A DNA stretch of 64,000 nt from a virus: the IMG/VR virus record IMGVR_UViG_3300023199_000204, positions 248,001 to 312,000 of that record; one strand, given 5' to 3'. Positions within the stretch are counted from its first letter, which is position 1. Every line of letters begins with the position of its first letter. A program made the translations under genes and the position numbers. A model generated the notes under the pieces. That model was not told the origin of the DNA. It searched no databases and worked only from the letters and a program-made list of their open reading frames with translations. Below, piece after piece: positions 4,952-53,214 of this stretch.

Positions 4952-5041
4952 AAAAACAAAACATAAGATATATTATATTTAATTACTACTAATAATTTAG
5001 CATACTCATCGAAATGATATACAAAATTATGGAGGTGTGAT

Positions 5042-5149
5042 ATGGCATTTGTATTAGGTCTTTTACTAGGAGCTGTAGTTAGTCCTCCACTTTACCTATT
5101 AGGAAAGTGGGGCTACGGAAAATTGAAAGAGAAATTTTCAAAGGAATAA
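5042..5149 (+). CDS. single-pass membrane peptide, 35 aa
   Basis: A 35-residue peptide with one hydrophobic segment (AFVLGLLLGAVVSPPLYLL) and a lysine-rich tail, preceded by a strong GGAGGTG site. A GGGGC/GCCCC hairpin follows at 5157-5170. Function unknown. Confidence 0.6.
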   Translation: MAFVLGLLLGAVVSPPLYLLGKWGYGKLKEKFSKE

Positions 5150-7659: not shown

Positions 7660-7759
7660 GGAGCAGTAAAAGAGTTAGTAGAACAGCTCGGAACGAGAAA
7701 CGAAAGCTCAGCCTTCTTAGGAAGTGTGGAAAATGTAGGTTCGAGTCCTACCTGCTCCG
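7660..7759 (+). tRNA. tRNA-Ser(CGA)-like, atypical
   Basis: The acceptor GGAGCAG pairs perfectly with CTGCTCC, G is the discriminator, and the T arm is GTAGG-TTCGAGT-CCTAC. A CTTC/GAAG variable stem marks a class II tRNA. CGA is the best anticodon reading, but the anticodon loop lacks U33 and the D arm is shifted. An orthodox tRNA-Ser(CGA) occurs at 46077. Confidence 0.5.
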
Positions 7760-28844: not shown

Positions 28845-28964
28845 ATGTCTATATTTAATTTACGCTTGAAATTAAAATCTATCCAAATTACTGATCAAGT
28901 TGATCAGAAGGATAGATGTGTGCGCCAATATAATACCACAAATATTGGAGGCTCAAGCGTATAA
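28845..28964 (+). CDS. 39-aa peptide upstream of terminator and tRNAs
   Basis: Begins MSIFNLRLKL, similar to MIVFNLNLSN at 13987. Both follow TATATTAGGA and precede an intrinsic terminator and tRNAs. Probably a real short peptide; function unknown. Confidence 0.4.
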   Translation: MSIFNLRLKLKSIQITDQVDQKDRCVRQYNTTNIGGSSV

Positions 28965-28991
28965 GACATTAATATTATTAGATGTTTTATC

Positions 28992-29027
28992 AAGCCGCTT
29001 GGGTCAAAAGCCCTGGCGGCTTTTTTA
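28992..29027 (+). terminator. intrinsic terminator
   Basis: AAGCCGC pairs with GCGGCTT around an inner GGG/CCC step and is followed by TTTTTT. tRNA-Cys begins 3 bases downstream. Confidence 0.8.
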
Positions 29028-29029
29028 TT

Positions 29030-29101
29030 GACGTGCTCCTTGGGACTGAGGGTTAGGCTCTGCAAAAGCTTGAATTTGGGGTTCAACTCCCCAGCACGTC
29101 T
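29030..29101 (+). tRNA. tRNA-Cys(GCA)
   Basis: The acceptor GACGTGC pairs with GCACGTC, and U73 is the cysteine-type discriminator. Loop CTGCAAA. The T arm is TGGGG-TTCAACT-CCCCA. Confidence 0.9.
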
Positions 29102-29115
29102 TGGAAATAAAATAA

Positions 29116-29248
29116 GGATGCGTTGAGCAGTGCGGTGAGCTTGGCGGGCTGTGGGGATTGATTAAATGGTAATTTTAATGAGTTCGATTCTCACATTCCC
29201 AAAACCCCGTGGTCTTCGGGCTTGTAGGTTCGATTCCTACCGCATCCA
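29116..29248 (+). tRNA. tRNA-Tyr(GUA) interrupted in the anticodon by a tRNA-like element
   Basis: The outer gene has acceptor GGATGCG/CGCATCC, D stem GAGC/GCTT, anticodon stem GCGGG (29144-29148)/CCCGT (29206-29210), variable arm GGTC-TTCG-GGCT, T arm GTAGG-TTCGATT-CCTAC and A73. Between anticodon positions 35 (U29152) and 36 (A29203) lie 50 extra bases. Removing them gives loop CTGTAAC with anticodon GUA. The class II variable arm and A73 both fit bacterial tRNA-Tyr. No other tRNA-Tyr is present in the window. Confidence 0.75.
29153..29202 (+). other. inner tRNA-like element 1 (no anticodon arm)
   Basis: GGGGAT pairs with ATTCCC, extendable by U29152-A29201. A D-like hairpin ATT/AAT has GG in its loop. 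Only TTTAA separates it from a T arm TGAG-TTCGATT-CTCA. There is no anticodon arm. It shares TGAGTTCGATTCTCAC with element 2 at 31135-31150. The exact ends are uncertain by one base. Confidence 0.6.
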
Positions 29249-29262
29249 ATAGGAGAAAGAAA

Positions 29263-29620
29263 ATTAATTTAGGAAGCATTTTAGATGACTATAATAAATT
29301 TTATAGTAGGATATTAAGTTATTTTAATATAAATTATTTAAGTGGAGATATATCAGACTCCAGAGAGTATTACTGGTTTAATGATTATGATTCACTTTAT
29401 TTCTTTTCAAAAAAAACCAAAATATAAAACTGTATATGAAAAAGGACCAGAATATAAAAGTACGATAAGTTCTTATCACGGAGTAGGCGTAGTAAATGGT
29501 GGAGATTTGACACTTGTTCAAGTTATTGATGACTGCGGAGGTGGTGATATAGCTATGATTCTCGATAATAAAAAGAAAATAACAGATGAGAAAATTATAG
29601 AATTAGTTGAAGAATTTTAG
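29263..29620 (+). pseudogene. frameshifted hypothetical gene with ATT start
   Basis: AGGAG at 29250-29254 is correctly spaced to ATT 29263, not to an ATG. The frame runs through NLGSILDDYNKF to SLYFFSKK, then a shift at the A8 run (about 29408-29416) leads to YKTVYEKGPEYKSTISSYHG and VIDDCGGGDIAMILDN, ending at 29620. Read as one gene it gives about 118 residues of unknown function. Confidence 0.5.
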
Positions 29621-29629
29621 GTAGAGAGG

Positions 29630-30167
29630 ATGATAAAAGGATTTCGTGAATATGGCTACAATACGGAAATAAAAAATATAAAAGAGGTGGTTTTTGAAGA
29701 TTTTAAGGTAAGGGAAGAGGACAGGGAAGGTGTTAATATATTATTTGCTGTATATAGACACCCACCTTATTGAAGGATATGCTCTCGTTTTCTTTGAAAA
29801 AAATGGGAAGTTATATGAGGTTCAAAGCTCTCACTGTTCTTGTAGGGGACTTGAGGAGCAGTGGTCCCCATAAGAAACTAACTATGAGACTGTAAAATTT
29901 AGAATTAAGGGCAATAGCTATTGGGGTTGGGATGAATATTCAAATGATATTCTTAAGATTTTAAAAGAAAGGTTTGGTATTATGAAACAAAAAGATTGGA
30001 CGCTTGAGCAAGAGTATTTTAGTTGGAAAAGATGGGATCAATGTGATACACTATCAGTAATTTTTTACGAGGTTCAGTTTAAGAAAAGCTTTGGCGTGTT
30101 TAGTAAAGGAGAGGAATTCGGAAGCATTATGCTTTCTTATAAAGATGGAATTATTGAAGCTTATTAA
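29630..30167 (+). pseudogene. conserved-looking gene with a frameshift and an in-frame TAA
   Basis: ATG 29630 follows GAGAGG. After YRHPPY one base is extra. The next frame, IEGYALVFFEKNGKLYEVQS then HCSCRGLEEQW, resembles phage proteins with a similar HCSC.GLE segment. TAA at 29871-29873 follows QWSP, and the frame then stays open for 98 codons to 30167. Two independent lesions suggest decay or error. Confidence 0.5.
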
Positions 30168-30280
30168 AAAGATGGAGAAGAAGTTTTAAAGACTCAAAAA
30201 TTTAGATTACAACCATTTATGGAACAATAATCAACATCATTTGTTTTCTAGGATATAGTGATTTAATTTAATAGGAAAAA

Positions 30281-30352
30281 TCCGGGTTAGTGAAATGGCA
30301 TCATCGCACGGCTGTTAACCGTGAATTAGAGGTTCGAGTCCTCTACCCGGAG
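30281..30352 (+). tRNA. tRNA-Asn(GUU), copy 1
   Basis: The acceptor TCCGGGT pairs with ACCCGGA, with G73. Stem CACGG/CCGTG closes loop CTGTTAA. The T arm is AGAGG-TTCGAGT-CCTCT. Confidence 0.9.
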
Positions 30353-30366
30353 ATAAGGAGAAAGGA

Positions 30367-30751
30367 ATGTCTAATAAATAAAAAAGAAGTTCTAGAGGTG
30401 TTAGAAAGGTATGAAGAGATTAAAAGTGAAATTAAAGGAACATTCTTAATTTATGCTAAATATTGTGGTATTTAAGTTTCAGAAATAGTTCATATTGAGG
30501 TAAACGAAAGTGAGGTTGAAGTAGAATACACTGAGCCAGGCGGATGTAGCTGTTGCTATACTAGTAGATACTCTACTTTTCCTATTAGTTATTTATGGGA
30601 AGAGAATTGGATTGAAAAGCTAAAAGCTAAGCATCAAGTGGAATTAGCCGAAAAAATTAAAAAGAAAGAAGAGGAAAAAGAAAGAAGAGAAAGAGAGCAA
30701 CTAGAGCTGGATAAAAAGCTTTATAAAAGATTAAAAGAAAAATTCGGCTAA
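30367..30751 (+). pseudogene. coiled-coil protein gene with frameshift and in-frame TAA
   Basis: ATG 30367 behind AAGGAGAAAGG gives MSNK then TAA; a one-base shift in the A run gives KKEVLEVLERYEEIKSE. TAA at 30473-30475 is followed in the same frame by 91 codons, including GGCSCCYTSRYSTFPISYLW and a charged helical tail, to TAA 30749. The CSCCY...S..P.S.LW layout is common in phage proteins of unknown role. Confidence 0.5.
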
Positions 30752-30803
30752 AATAATCTTAGAGGCAGATTCCACTGGGTGAGTTAATAAGGAAAGTAAA
30801 ATA

Positions 30804-31028
30804 ATGAATTTCGCAAAATGGTTTAGAGAACAGCAAAAAGACGCTAAGGCTGTAATTAATTTAACAAAACTTGATGTCAGAGATGAGCCTTGTCTTACCC
30901 TAAAGGGCAATAATAAATATAAAGTTTTGATAACACAAAATACATTTATTTCGAATGTATGTGGAATTTTCGTTGAAGATGTAAATTATGTATTAATGGA
31001 GGCACAAAATGAAGAAACGAAAACGTAA
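30804..31028 (+). CDS. hypothetical protein, 74 aa
   Basis: It is preceded by AAGGAAAG. Begins MNFAKWFREQQKDAK. No family recognised. Confidence 0.55.
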   Translation: MNFAKWFREQQKDAKAVINLTKLDVRDEPCLTLKGNNKYKVLITQNTFISNVCGIFVEDVNYVLMEAQNEETKT

Positions 31029-31048
31029 ATAAAAATCAGGCAAACTAT

Positions 31049-31196
31049 GCCTCCGTGGTGTTAATGGCTTAGCACACTGGATTTTGCGAAAGACATTTGG
31101 TATGTAGATGTTAGAGGCAACTCTTTGGTCTAAGTGAGTTCGATTCTCACCTTTCGCGTAATCCATGAAGTGTGGGTTCGAATCCTACCGGGGCTA
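31049..31196 (+). tRNA. tRNA-Lys(UUU) interrupted in the anticodon by a tRNA-like element
   Basis: The outer gene has acceptor GCCTCCG/CGGGGCT (one mismatch), D stem GTGT/GCAC, anticodon stem CTGGA/TCCAT and T arm GTGGG-TTCGAAT-CCTAC, with A73. Bases 31086-31158 split the anticodon after position 35. Joining TTTT to TAA restores the 7-nt loop TTTTTAA with anticodon UUU. This is the same insertion point as in the tRNA-Tyr gene at 29116. No uninterrupted tRNA-Lys(UUU) is present in the window. Confidence 0.75.
31086..31158 (+). other. inner tRNA-like element 2 (no usable anticodon)
   Basis: GCGAAAG pairs perfectly with CTTTCGC, with discriminator G. A D-like arm ACAT/ATGT encloses TTGGTATGTAG, and the T arm is GTGAG-TTCGATT-CTCAC. 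Where an anticodon arm should be there is AGAG-GCAA-CTCT, a GNRA-capped hairpin without a 7-nt loop. The length is 73 nt. Confidence 0.65.
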
Positions 31197-31254
31197 TAAA
31201 ATAGATTAGATAAGAGGATTTAGTTAATATTTATTATTAAAAGGAAAGGAAAAA

Positions 31255-31365
31255 ATGAAAAGTAAAATTTTATCAGTTGTATTGTCAGTTTGTTTGTTAA
31301 TTGGAACGGTATTTGCGACTTCTGCCTGTGGAGACGACTTAGTTGTTAATGGAAAAAACATATAA
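31255..31365 (+). CDS. small lipoprotein, 36 aa
   Basis: A basic start and hydrophobic core (VVLSVCLLIGTVFATSAC) end at a lipobox-like ATSAC, leaving only an 11-residue mature tail (GDDLVVNGKNI). It overlaps the next membrane protein in another frame by 17 bases. AAGGAAAGG precedes the start. Confidence 0.55.
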   Translation: MKSKILSVVLSVCLLIGTVFATSACGDDLVVNGKNI

Positions 31366-31540
31366 AACCAAAGGTATTTTTACTCAAGATGAAAAAGACC
31401 CTTGTATTAAATATAGTTTAATTGCTGGAAATGTTGCTTGGGCAATTATATTTTTTGGAACAGCAGTTGCTCCAGTTTATTTTTTTGGATTTTCTTTATG
31501 GGAGCCAGCGAGAGTTAAGTCAGAATGCGAAAAGAAATAA
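31349..31540 (+). CDS. membrane protein, 63 aa
   Basis: Two hydrophobic stretches (SLIAGNVAWAIIFFGTAVAP and YFFGFSLW). ATG 31349 lies within the lipoprotein gene. The pair could be an envelope-acting unit, but no family is recognised. Confidence 0.5.
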   Translation: MEKTYKTKGIFTQDEKDPCIKYSLIAGNVAWAIIFFGTAVAPVYFFGFSLWEPARVKSECEKK

Positions 31541-31830
31541 AGTCTCCAAAAATAGGAATGGGAGCAACCATTCAACTTTGGTCAGATAGAATTGCTGGAA
31601 CAATCGTGAGAATTACAAAAACTAAAAAGACAATCTTTATTCAAGAAGATGCGGCATCAAGAATTGATAGAAACGGAATAAGTGAAAGCCAAAGATATGA
31701 ATATACTCCAAATTCTAAAGGAAATGTATATCGTGCTTCTTTAAGAAAATATGGAAGGTTTAGAGTATCAAAAACCAATGAATTAGTTAGTATTAGAGTA
31801 AGACGCAAGTTTTACGATTATTTTTTTTAA
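31525..31830 (+). CDS. conserved phage-type protein, 101 aa
   Basis: MGATIQLWSDRIAGTIV near 12-28 and IFIQEDAASRIDRNGISESQ near 37-56 match the layout of a widespread uncharacterised phage protein, which usually ends YYDYSF (here FYDYFF). Function unknown. Confidence 0.65.
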   Translation: MRKEIKSPKIGMGATIQLWSDRIAGTIVRITKTKKTIFIQEDAASRIDRNGISESQRYEYTPNSKGNVYRASLRKYGRFRVSKTNELVSIRVRRKFYDYFF

Positions 31831-31837
31831 GGACATT

Positions 31838-32110
31838 ATGGGAAGATTAAAAGTAGCTAGTTATATTGAAGAGTGGTTGAAATTAGAATGCCCACACTGT
31901 GAAGAGTCAAATTGGCTTCAATCATCATTTGGAGACATATTAGACCCTGATGTTGATGCGATTAGATGCCTATCCTGTAAAGAGTTGTTTCTTGTTTGTG
32001 AAAGAGAGGAATGGGAGAGTGAAGATAATTTATACATAGAAGATGGAGTGACTGATCCGTCTGAAATAAAAGAGTTAGATTTTTATAATGAAGAGATTTG
32101 GAATGATTAA
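31838..32110 (+). CDS. zinc-ribbon protein, 90 aa
   Basis: CPHCEESNW near 16-24 and CLSCKELF near 46-53 form a zinc ribbon. The remainder is acidic. Function unknown. Confidence 0.6.
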   Translation: MGRLKVASYIEEWLKLECPHCEESNWLQSSFGDILDPDVDAIRCLSCKELFLVCEREEWESEDNLYIEDGVTDPSEIKELDFYNEEIWND

Positions 32111-32114
32111 ATAA

Positions 32115-32187
32115 GGGTTTGTGGTGTCAATGTAGCATATTCGCCTCTTAAGCGAAAAGGTGATGGGTTCAAGTCCCTCCGAGCCTA
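32115..32187 (+). tRNA. tRNA-Lys(CUU)
   Basis: The acceptor GGGTTTG pairs with CGAGCCT including G-U pairs. Stem TTCGC/GCGAA closes loop CTCTTAA, with A73. Confidence 0.88.
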
Positions 32188-32207
32188 CAATAATTGAAAG
32201 GAGAAAA

Positions 32208-32462
32208 ATGAAAGATTTGAAAGACTATTCAATCGAAGATTTACAAAAAGAAATTAATAGAAGGGAAAAGTTAAGTAGTGTTCCAGAATTGATTGAAAAT
32301 CCTGATTTTTCCAATGCGATAAGGGAAGCAGAAGAAATCATCAACTCAGTGTTGGTAAATGATGGGCGTCCTGGGAAGGATTATAAAAATGGTATTTTCT
32401 CAGAAATAATGAAGGCATTATATGGACCAAGCTTTTTTTTGAATGGTGGAACAGTAATGTGA
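32208..32462 (+). CDS. hypothetical protein, 84 aa
   Basis: ATG 32208 follows AAAGGAG. Helical N-terminus (SIEDLQKEINRREKL). TGA at 32460 precedes the next gene by 7 bases. Confidence 0.55.
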   Translation: MKDLKDYSIEDLQKEINRREKLSSVPELIENPDFSNAIREAEEIINSVLVNDGRPGKDYKNGIFSEIMKALYGPSFFLNGGTVM

Positions 32463-32469
32463 GGCATTA

Positions 32470-32874
32470 ATGTTTGGAGTTAAAAGTGTTTCAGCATTAG
32501 TTCTTAACGAACTCATCCAAACTCAAGATGAGTATGTAAGAAAAAAAGCTTTGTCAAGGATACACAAAAGCATTAAGAGGCTTAAAAATATATTTGATGA
32601 ACTTGAAGGTATAAAAAACAGAAATGTATTTGATGATCTTTATTTTTCAACATAGGAGGCTATACTTGATAAAGTATTAGATGATAAGTGTATTCCATAT
32701 AAGGTAGCATCATATATTCATACAACATTAACTTCTTATATTAGAAGTAGAAGAAGAGAGATATATCTTAAAAATTATTTTGTTAAGAAGAAAAGGGGTA
32801 GGAAGAGATTAATAAACAAGACCAAAAAACATTTGGAAGAATATGAAAGTTATATAAATTCAGCTGTCTTCTAA
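32470..32874 (+). pseudogene. hypothetical gene with in-frame TAG
   Basis: ATG 32470 opens a helical protein; TAG at 32653-32655 follows DDLYFST. The frame then continues for 72 codons (EAILDKVLDDKCIPYKVA..., SYIRSRRREIYL) to TAA 32872-32874. Its last codons overlap the truncated tRNA-Gln. Confidence 0.5.
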
Positions 32875-32933
32875 CTGGATAAGATCCCTGGCTTTGAACT
32901 AGGGCAATGTGGGTTCGAATCCCATTATTCCCG
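32865..32933 (+). tRNA. tRNA-Gln(UUG), 5' acceptor strand missing
   Basis: D stem TCTT/AAGA, anticodon stem CCTGG/CTAGG around CTTTGAA (UUG) and T arm GTGGG-TTCGAAT-CCCAT are intact. The 3' strand TATTCCC has no partner upstream, where the end of a protein gene lies instead. Probably a truncated tRNA. Confidence 0.55.
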
Positions 32934-34914: not shown

Positions 34915-35000
34915 ATTCCGATAGTTTAATGGCAAAAACGCCCGCACCCAGCACAATGCGATTTGAAGCGGGAGATGTTGGTTCGAGTCCGACAGAGTTT
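34915..35000 (+). other. tRNA-Gln-like sequence with enlarged anticodon loop
   Basis: D stem GTTT/AAAC, anticodon stem CCCGC/GCGGG and T arm GTTGG-TTCGAGT-CCGAC are present. The loop has 22 nt instead of 7; dropping 15 would leave ATTTGAA (anticodon UUG). The acceptor strands do not pair. Probably degenerate. Confidence 0.4.
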
Positions 35001-40634: not shown

Positions 40635-40717
40635 GCATCCCGTTCCAGACGCCTGTCTTCTAAATAGGTTCCTTAATAGTTTGGGGGAGGTAAGAGGTTC
40701 GAGTCCTCCGGGGTGTT
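40635..40717 (+). tRNA. tRNA-Arg(UCU)-like, atypical arms
   Basis: The acceptor GCATCCC pairs with GGGGTGT, stem CCTGT/ATAGG closes loop CTTCTAA, and the T arm is GAGG-TTCGAGT-CCTC. Only about 10 nt lie where the D arm should be and about 24 nt form the variable region, so the fold is unusual. Confidence 0.6.
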
Positions 40718-51906: not shown

Positions 51907-53214
51907 ATGTCAGTAATAGCAATGGAAGTAATGGAGGCGTTTGATCATCCAAATGCTGATTCATTAAGAGTTTATAAATTTATAGCACCAGGGCAAGCAT
52001 CAAAAGAGCGTCCACTTCAAATAGTTGCGAATCTTGAAAATGTGTATGAGGTTGGCGATGTCGTTGCTGTTGCGTTGGTTGGAACTGTTTTAAAAGATGA
52101 AACCACTATCAAAAAAGTAAATCTTCGTGGAGAGTCTTCATACGGAATGGCTTTGGGAAAAGTCGATGCCAAGGTCGGCGAAAATCTTTCTGATAAATAT
52201 GAGGCAGAAGAGATAAAACCTTCAATGGCAGGATTTATTAAATGGCCGAGCATTTCAGGTTTTCATAATATTAGAAAATCATTAGAGAAAATAAAAGAAT
52301 ATGAGGGAGGTGCTTTTACTTATCCAAAACTTGATTACAAATGTAAAGTGAAATTACACGGAACGAATTCGGGTGTTCATTTACATTCTGATGGAACATT
52401 TGCTGTTCAAAGTCGTTCAAGAATATTAACTCCTGAGCACGATAATTTGGGGTTTTATAGATGGACGCAGGATAGGAAAAATCATTTTGAAAAGTGGGCA
52501 AAATCTGCCGGTAGAAATTTAACCGTATTCGGAGAATTTTGTGGAGAGGGAATTCAAAAAGGCGTTGCTGTATCCAAGATAGAGAGGAAGATATTTGTTG
52601 TTTTCGCAGTCCAAGTTGATGAAAATACACTAATAACCGATCCAGAAGAAATCAATGGTTATGTTTTGGAACACGAAGATATAAAAGTTTTACCTTGGTA
52701 TGATGCTAATTTCTTCATTGATTATTCAAATACTGATTTGTTAAGGGCTGTTATTAAGGATATAAATGCTGAGGTAGATAAAGTAGAAAAAGAAGACCCT
52801 TGGGTAAAAGAAGTTTTTGGAGTGAGTGGTATAGGCGAAGGGTTAGTTTTTTATCCTTATAAAGAATATGATAGGGATAGAATATCTTTATTAATGTTTA
52901 AAGCGAAAGGAGAGAAGCATCAGGTTGCTGTTCAAAATAAGCCAGTCCAACTAGATCCAGAAGTATTAAATTCAATTAATGAGTTCTCTGATAAATTCAT
53001 TACAGAGGCAAGACTTGAACAAGGAGTTGCTGAAGGTTGTGATGGCAAGTTGGAAATGAAAATGATGGGTAAGTTTATTAAATGGATTATGTCTGATGTT
53101 AATAAAGAATCAAAAGACGAATTGGAAGCTTCGGGACTTAAATGGAAACAAGTAGGAAAAGAAGTTTCAAGTCGAGCCAGAAATTGGTATAAACAAAAGG
53201 TGGAAGAAATATAA
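51907..53214 (+). CDS. RNA ligase with N-terminal tRNA-binding domain
   Basis: 435 residues. Residues 1-105 match the OB-fold tRNA-binding domain of MetG/PheT: EAFDHPNADSLRVYKF near 10-25, QIVANLENVYEVGD and VNLRGESSYGMALGKVD. From about 135 comes a nucleotidyl-transferase RNA ligase: motif I KVKLHGTN with the adenylated lysine near 148, EFCGEGIQKGV, EGLVFYPYKE and motif V MFKAKGEKH. Rnl2/DraRnl-type ligases join 3'-OH and 5'-phosphate RNA ends with ATP. The added domain points to tRNA as substrate. It starts behind AAAGGAAAAG with no overlap. Two interrupted tRNA genes lie 20-23 kb upstream. Confidence 0.85.
   Translation: MSVIAMEVMEAFDHPNADSLRVYKFIAPGQASKERPLQIVANLENVYEVGDVVAVALVGTVLKDETTIKKVNLRGESSYGMALGKVDAKVGENLSDKYEAEEIKPSMAGFIKWPSISGFHNIRKSLEKIKEYEGGAFTYPKLDYKCKVKLHGTNSGVHLHSDGTFAVQSRSRILTPEHDNLGFYRWTQDRKNHFEKWAKSAGRNLTVFGEFCGEGIQKGVAVSKIERKIFVVFAVQVDENTLITDPEEINGYVLEHEDIKVLPWYDANFFIDYSNTDLLRAVIKDINAEVDKVEKEDPWVKEVFGVSGIGEGLVFYPYKEYDRDRISLLMFKAKGEKHQVAVQNKPVQLDPEVLNSINEFSDKFITEARLEQGVAEGCDGKLEMKMMGKFIKWIMSDVNKESKDELEASGLKWKQVGKEVSSRARNWYKQKVEEI

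Follow-up and report, generated by a model that had tools for sequence, protein, structure and literature searches.

A tRNA-like insert in the anticodon loop of tRNA-Lys(UUU) of a giant phage, and similarly interrupted tRNA genes in other phages

Analysis of 64,000 nucleotides from a giant-phage record of 316,473 bases (record positions 248001-312000, hereafter the window) confirmed that the gene at 31049-31196 is a tRNA-Lys(UUU) opened after position 35 by a tRNA-like insert. A second nested gene, tRNA-Tyr(GUA), occupies 29116-29248, and with about 15 more from nine additional, unrelated phages the total comes to about 17 cases in ten phages. We read the insert as a tRNA-like intron that RNase P and 3' processing would release and a phage ligase would seal, in Lys, Tyr and their relatives alike, and we put the probability of this reading at roughly 0.58.

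All features of the two nested genes lie on the plus strand. The 5' half of the outer tRNA-Lys (31049-31085) comprises the acceptor strand GCCTCCG, the D arm, the 5' strand of the anticodon stem and loop positions 32-35 (TTTT). The 3' half (31159-31196) resumes with TAA and the 3' strand of the anticodon stem, followed by the T arm GTGGG-TTCGAAT-CCTAC, the acceptor strand CGGGGCT and discriminator A; neither half is part of another tRNA. The 73-nt insert (31086-31158), the proposed intron between positions 35 and 36, reads in order GCGAAAG-AC, a D-like arm, a GCAA-capped hairpin with an internal loop, a T arm and CTTTCGC-G. Its acceptor 5' strand GCGAAAG (31086-31092) pairs at seven of seven positions with 31151-31157, the strand CTTTCGC, which together with discriminator G fills 31151-31158, and the T arm GTGAG-TTCGATT-CTCAC (31134-31150, stem 5/5) abuts the acceptor directly. 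In the MFE structure the hairpin AGAG-GCAA-CTCT (31113-31124) takes the place of the anticodon arm. CCA is absent from both the insert and the outer tRNA-Lys.

The insert folds with an MFE of -24.1 kcal/mol, compared with -14.7 +/- 2.6 for shuffled sequences (z -3.67; 0/200 shuffles as good), and the entire 147-nt precursor gives a z of -3.63, with the inner fold kept intact within its MFE structure. The first-pass annotation had placed the nested Lys gene correctly, and the elements that it described, namely a perfectly paired acceptor of 7 bp, a D-like arm, a T arm and a GCAA-capped hairpin, are borne out. Excision of 31086-31158 joins TTTT to TAA, and ARAGORN then calls tRNA-Lys(ttt), in agreement with the restoration of the UUU anticodon claimed earlier; a cloverleaf with a 7-nt anticodon loop and U33 is restored for Lys(ttt) and for Tyr variants. 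Run without introns, ARAGORN missed the nested Lys gene, and the Rfam tRNA model, searched up to E=5, found neither the inner nor the outer RNA of the nested genes in the window. The insert, unrecognised by both and carrying the GCAA hairpin instead of an anticodon arm, is not an ordinary tRNA. It was held earlier that an inner RNA scored by a covariance model as an ordinary tRNA, between poorly scoring outer halves, would speak against splicing; in the window the inner RNA is not scored in that way, yet the outer Lys goes unscored by the model as well. The outer Lys is plausible but imperfect because of its mismatches in the acceptor (C2xC71, besides G1.U72) and in the anticodon stem (C27xU43).

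In the tRNA-Tyr(GUA) gene the 5' half, ending GCGGG-CTGT, spans 29116-29152 (boundary ambiguous by about 1 nt), the insert of about 50 nt spans 29153-29202, and the 3' half with a long variable arm, T arm and acceptor strand CGCATCC spans 29203-29248. This insert consists of an acceptor, one D-like hairpin and a T arm without any anticodon arm, and the outer Tyr acceptor is perfect. A split after position 35 is the placement that gives GUA with a 7-nt loop, and the insertion point claimed earlier to be common to Lys and Tyr is supported within the ambiguity of about 1 nt. The claim that chance is unlikely also held: the window has two instances of a pair of T-loops spaced by 38-46 nt, against none in 100 shuffles, and independent cases exist in other phages. 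Overall, the analysis supports the earlier reading of an interrupted tRNA whose tRNA-like insert sits at a shared anticodon position, and the cases in other phages strengthen this reading.

A total of 26 tRNAs were called in the window by ARAGORN, and a tmRNA is also present; across the whole record the tRNA model gave 36 matches. A group I or archaeal-type (bulge-helix-bulge) tRNA intron, though both types break tRNA anticodon loops, is extremely improbable here. Inserts of 50-73 nt are far too short for group I, neither the catalytic core nor any Rfam group I match was found in the window, and the genome is that of a bacterial-type phage with a tmRNA, in which no splicing endonuclease came to notice; this argues against the archaeal type. 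A nucleotide search with window positions 28900-32300 against known phages gave no match, relatives sought in IMG/VR through the ligase or the DHH protein were not found, the exact insert pattern did not occur elsewhere, and the window gave no clear support for an alternative genetic code.

Several other tRNA-like genes of unusual form were observed. A Gln(TTG)-like tRNA at window 34922-34993 has about 15 extra anticodon-loop bases (CCCAGCACAATGCGA), a near complement (12/13) of TCGCATTGGGCTG, which lies about 120 nt upstream. Another Gln(TTG)-like tRNA (window 32846-32931) has good D, anticodon and T arms and lacks a matching 5' acceptor strand. At window 7660-7759 a tRNA-like gene of 100 nt (28 bits, Rfam) has a perfect acceptor, GGAGCAG/CTGCTCC, and a D region with about 20 extra bases. 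The Arg(TCT) tRNAs at window 40636-40716 and in L135 (record 166194-166269) both combine a D region that is very short with a variable region of unusual length, their arms possibly being rearranged, and L135 15096-15204 (record 175096-175204) holds a 109-nt tRNA-like gene with a large interruption and the perfect 7-bp acceptor GTGGTAG/CTACCAC.

Pattern scans covered IMG/VR and GTDB contigs and were followed by an excise-and-refold test, which in its strict form locates an acceptor and T-arm unit, excises it and accepts an ARAGORN tRNA with a 7-nt anticodon loop across the junction. Applied to 1.09 Mb of pattern-selected loci, the test passed seven sites, whereas reversed sequence gave none; the shifted-excision control was uninformative, as its cuts land in adjacent ordinary tRNAs. 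When the junction was allowed anywhere in the outer tRNA, clean cases were mostly anticodon-loop junctions, and other regions gave poor cloverleaves except for a possible D-loop case in L306. The broad T-loop pattern gave many matches that are att-like fragments or chance, and these were left out of the count. Such matches, and the fact that tRNA genes are recombination hot spots, could be taken to mean that the nested genes are dead tandem remnants, with tRNA fragments put into tRNA genes by recombination or mis-insertion and never spliced. This is very unlikely, given restored anticodon loops and paired acceptors in the roughly 17 cases from ten phages (the inserts being chosen by pairing of the acceptor and T-arm unit), the empty reversed-sequence control and one case that is identical in three separate assemblies.

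The further cases comprise Leu, Glu, Gln, Arg, Ile, Asn, Thr, Tyr and Lys genes. Inserts that end in ACCA were found in L009 Leu(TAA) (52 nt, acceptor and T arm alone), L009 Glu(TTC) (77 nt), L209 Leu(CAA) (55 nt) and L222 Arg(TCT) (77 nt), and the insert of L018, of uncertain isotype, also has ACCA. L060 Gln(TTG) has an 83-nt insert ending in TCCA, and L344 has a 73-nt insert ending in GCCA in Ile(TAT) and a 123-nt insert in Gln(TTG); the L344 contig is binned as Mollicutes and is probably phage-like, judging from its tRNA array. Four interrupted tRNAs, Asn(GTT), Tyr(GTA), Thr(TGT) and Lys(TTT), lie within L081 2257-5158, and the identical case mentioned above is an Asn(GTT) in L361, L362 and L363; this Asn and the Asn, Tyr and Thr of L081 were assigned by hand reading of the sequence. 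L044 Arg(TCT) (4972-5124) carries a complete tRNA-Phe(GAA) in its anticodon loop, possibly two functional tRNAs in one. In L078 (6613-6780) an ordinary tRNA-Arg(CCT) was seen inside a larger tRNA-like frame whose anticodon stem is long and bulged.

In these other phages the inserts thus range from a 52-nt acceptor and T-arm minihelix to a complete tRNA-Phe, and in the clear cases the insertion lies between positions 34 and 37. The acceptor and T arm are kept in every insert analysed, a GG-bearing D loop usually and CCA sometimes. With one clear exception, the inserts have an anticodon arm that is degenerate or none at all. With the Rfam tRNA model, the outer tRNAs of L081 Thr, L081 Lys, L060 and L009 score 48-60 bits straight through the insert. 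The excised L009 Glu is 94.5% identical over 97% to uninterrupted phage tRNAs, and the splice point is fixed there by the gapless alignment across the junction. Strict concordance of inner and outer CCA status was considered and rejected, as L018, L044, L209 and L344 Gln disagree.

It may be asked whether the inner RNA, be it a genuine tRNA or a specialised tRNA-like RNA, is the functional product and the outer tRNA a broken relic. The complete tRNA-Phe within the Arg frame of L044 (72.4 bits), the ordinary tRNA-Arg(CCT) of L078 and the mismatches in the outer Lys of the window fit that arrangement. It is unlikely, since in most cases the outer tRNA is intact and the inner RNA has no usable anticodon. 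Moreover, apart from the nested genes, no Lys(UUU) or Tyr(GUA) was found among the 36 matches that the tRNA model gave in the record or by ARAGORN on the stretches read, in a phage whose tRNA set is otherwise broad. The corresponding codons AAA and TAT are heavily used (76 and 41 per thousand in 30 window ORFs), and with sole copies and such codon use the outer Lys and Tyr tRNAs are likely to function.

The intron reading draws on the ends of the inserts. In the window, L009 (twice), L060, L209, L222 and L344, the tRNA-like unit follows directly on the 5' exon, and its discriminator or CCA is followed at once by the 3' exon. Splice points exactly at these positions in most cases point to end-processing enzymes as the cutters, and the inserts retain the features that such enzymes read, namely an acceptor stem stacked on the T stem and a T loop. 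The Lys insert, in which a 7-bp acceptor runs on into a 5-bp T stem closed by a T loop, has the anatomy of the acceptor-stem/T-stem/T-loop hairpin, a classical RNase P model substrate (PMC11143913). In L361-363 the acceptor of the insert is weaker, being imperfectly paired, and about 4 nt are added on the 3' side. In L081 all four inserts carry a hairpin (loop AGTAAA or AGAGAA) and linker of 24-31 nt between exon 1 and the tRNA-like unit, and because of these extra nucleotides RNase P cutting at the tRNA-like 5' end would give a wrong 5' exon; the 5' exon end of L081 needs an additional cut or trimming. The shared hairpin of L081 is possibly a second splicing signal.

From the anatomy, the recurrence, the coincidence of ends in most inserts and the presence of a ligase gene, we infer the following course of cleavage, sealing and function. 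The inner acceptor/T-arm unit would fold independently within the precursor, RNase P would cut at 31085/31086, and RNase Z or another endonuclease acting on tRNA 3' ends would cut at 31158/31159, freeing a 73-nt tRNA-like RNA without anticodon. The tRNA-Lys halves would be left with a 3'-OH and a 5'-phosphate and be held together by the outer cloverleaf until an ATP-dependent RNA ligase of the phage, for which the 51907-53214 protein is the likeliest candidate, sealed the nick and restored UUU; tRNA-Tyr and the nested relatives in other phages would follow the same route. RNase P and RNase Z products carry 3'-OH and 5'-phosphate, and such ends are joined by Rnl1/Rnl2-type ligases. RNase Z is usually inhibited by CCA, so that inserts of the CCA type may need another 3' nuclease.

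The candidate exon ligase (51907-53214, plus strand, 435 aa) has a PheRS-beta-like tRNA_bind domain, an OB fold at the N-terminus, fused to an RNA_ligase domain with the motifs KLHG..EG..K. This combination of an N-terminal OB/tRNA_bind domain and nucleotidyltransferase motifs is of the Rnl2/Rnl5 type, and we take the protein to resemble Rnl5. Its closest phage relatives are 31-38% identical, and the same record has another RNA_ligase gene at a different place. In L209 and L081, ligase genes lie at distances of about 1 kb and about 2 kb, respectively, from nested tRNAs; the records of L009 (93 kb), L018 (125 kb) and L044 (27 kb), which are possibly fragments, yielded none. RNA ligases are common also in large phages without nested tRNAs, and as a discriminating marker the ligase was rejected because tRNA-rich controls often carry one.

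The insert might also be a real intron cut by another nuclease, that is, an anticodon-loop or splicing nuclease of host or phage that would leave different end chemistry, followed by healing and sealing like that of T4 Pnkp/Rnl1, the tRNA shape reflecting ancestry only. T4 mends anticodon-loop-cut tRNA-Lys in such a manner (PMC3400036), the conserved extra hairpin beside exon 1 in L081 would fit this reading, and Rnl1-type ligases occur in two contigs. We regard this as rather unlikely, since the boundaries of most inserts coincide exactly with the mature ends of the tRNA-like unit, and since selection has kept the acceptor and T arm and not any common sequence. In addition, a search for the Rnl1 family in the record of the window gave no match, and RtcB was found in none of eight records searched, where a 3'-OH/5'-phosphate route therefore fits better.

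If the intron reading is right, a tRNA-in-tRNA intron bounded by tRNA-processing sites offers a concrete and easily testable splicing mechanism. It would explain why standard annotation misses important phage tRNAs, in this case Lys(UUU) and Tyr(GUA), suggest a possible normal job for phage RNA ligases, and give insight into the origin of split and interrupted tRNA genes. The tRNA introns of bacteria and phages have been regarded as essentially group I or group II ribozymes. A wider proposal is that phages splice tRNAs without a splicing endonuclease or ribozyme, using tRNA-disguised introns, host RNase P and a 3' nuclease with a phage tRNA-binding ligase, and that this route arose when whole tRNAs came to lie within tRNAs and the inner one was later reduced to a processing minihelix; we consider the chances of this about even.

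Comparison with known systems begins with the tRNA introns of Lak phages (Devoto et al. 2019, PMC6784885), a report overlooked in the first-pass annotation. In the part of that report concerned, the introns, which include Tyr(GTA) and Thr(TGT), are called enigmatic, and the Thr(TGT) intron is said possibly to encode a tRNA itself. The phenomenon is therefore not wholly new: a phage tRNA interrupted by a tRNA-folding insert, as defined there, describes the nested Lys, Tyr is affected here too, and L081 has an interrupted Thr(TGT). The comparison is with the published description, the present records not being established as Lak, and the L081 Thr gene had no full-length match in the phage collection. 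No later paper explaining the Lak introns was found in the literature outside subscription journals and preprints. No excision route is proposed in that part of the Lak report, whereas one is suggested here, together with many isotypes, exact coincidence of tRNA-like and exon ends, acceptor and T-arm minihelices and an RNA ligase with a tRNA_bind domain. Both the architecture, as a recurrent one, and the mechanism appear to be new. The inserts resemble group I introns of bacterial tRNA genes in interrupting the anticodon loop, in bacteria and phages, but those are self-splicing ribozymes of more than 200 nt, and the inserts here are 50-77 nt without Rfam match. Archaeal and eukaryotic introns are likewise short, lie in the anticodon loop and depend on proteins for cutting and ligation, as would be the case here, but their usual site is 37/38, whereas the present site is within 34-37 and the insert itself is tRNA-like. 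In T4 repair by Pnkp/Rnl1 after PrrC, and with Rnl2/Rnl5-type ligases, a phage RNA ligase joins tRNA-Lys halves broken in the anticodon loop, as is suggested here; T4, however, repairs damage by a host nuclease, whereas here an encoded insert would be removed, leaving 3'-OH and 5'-phosphate ends.
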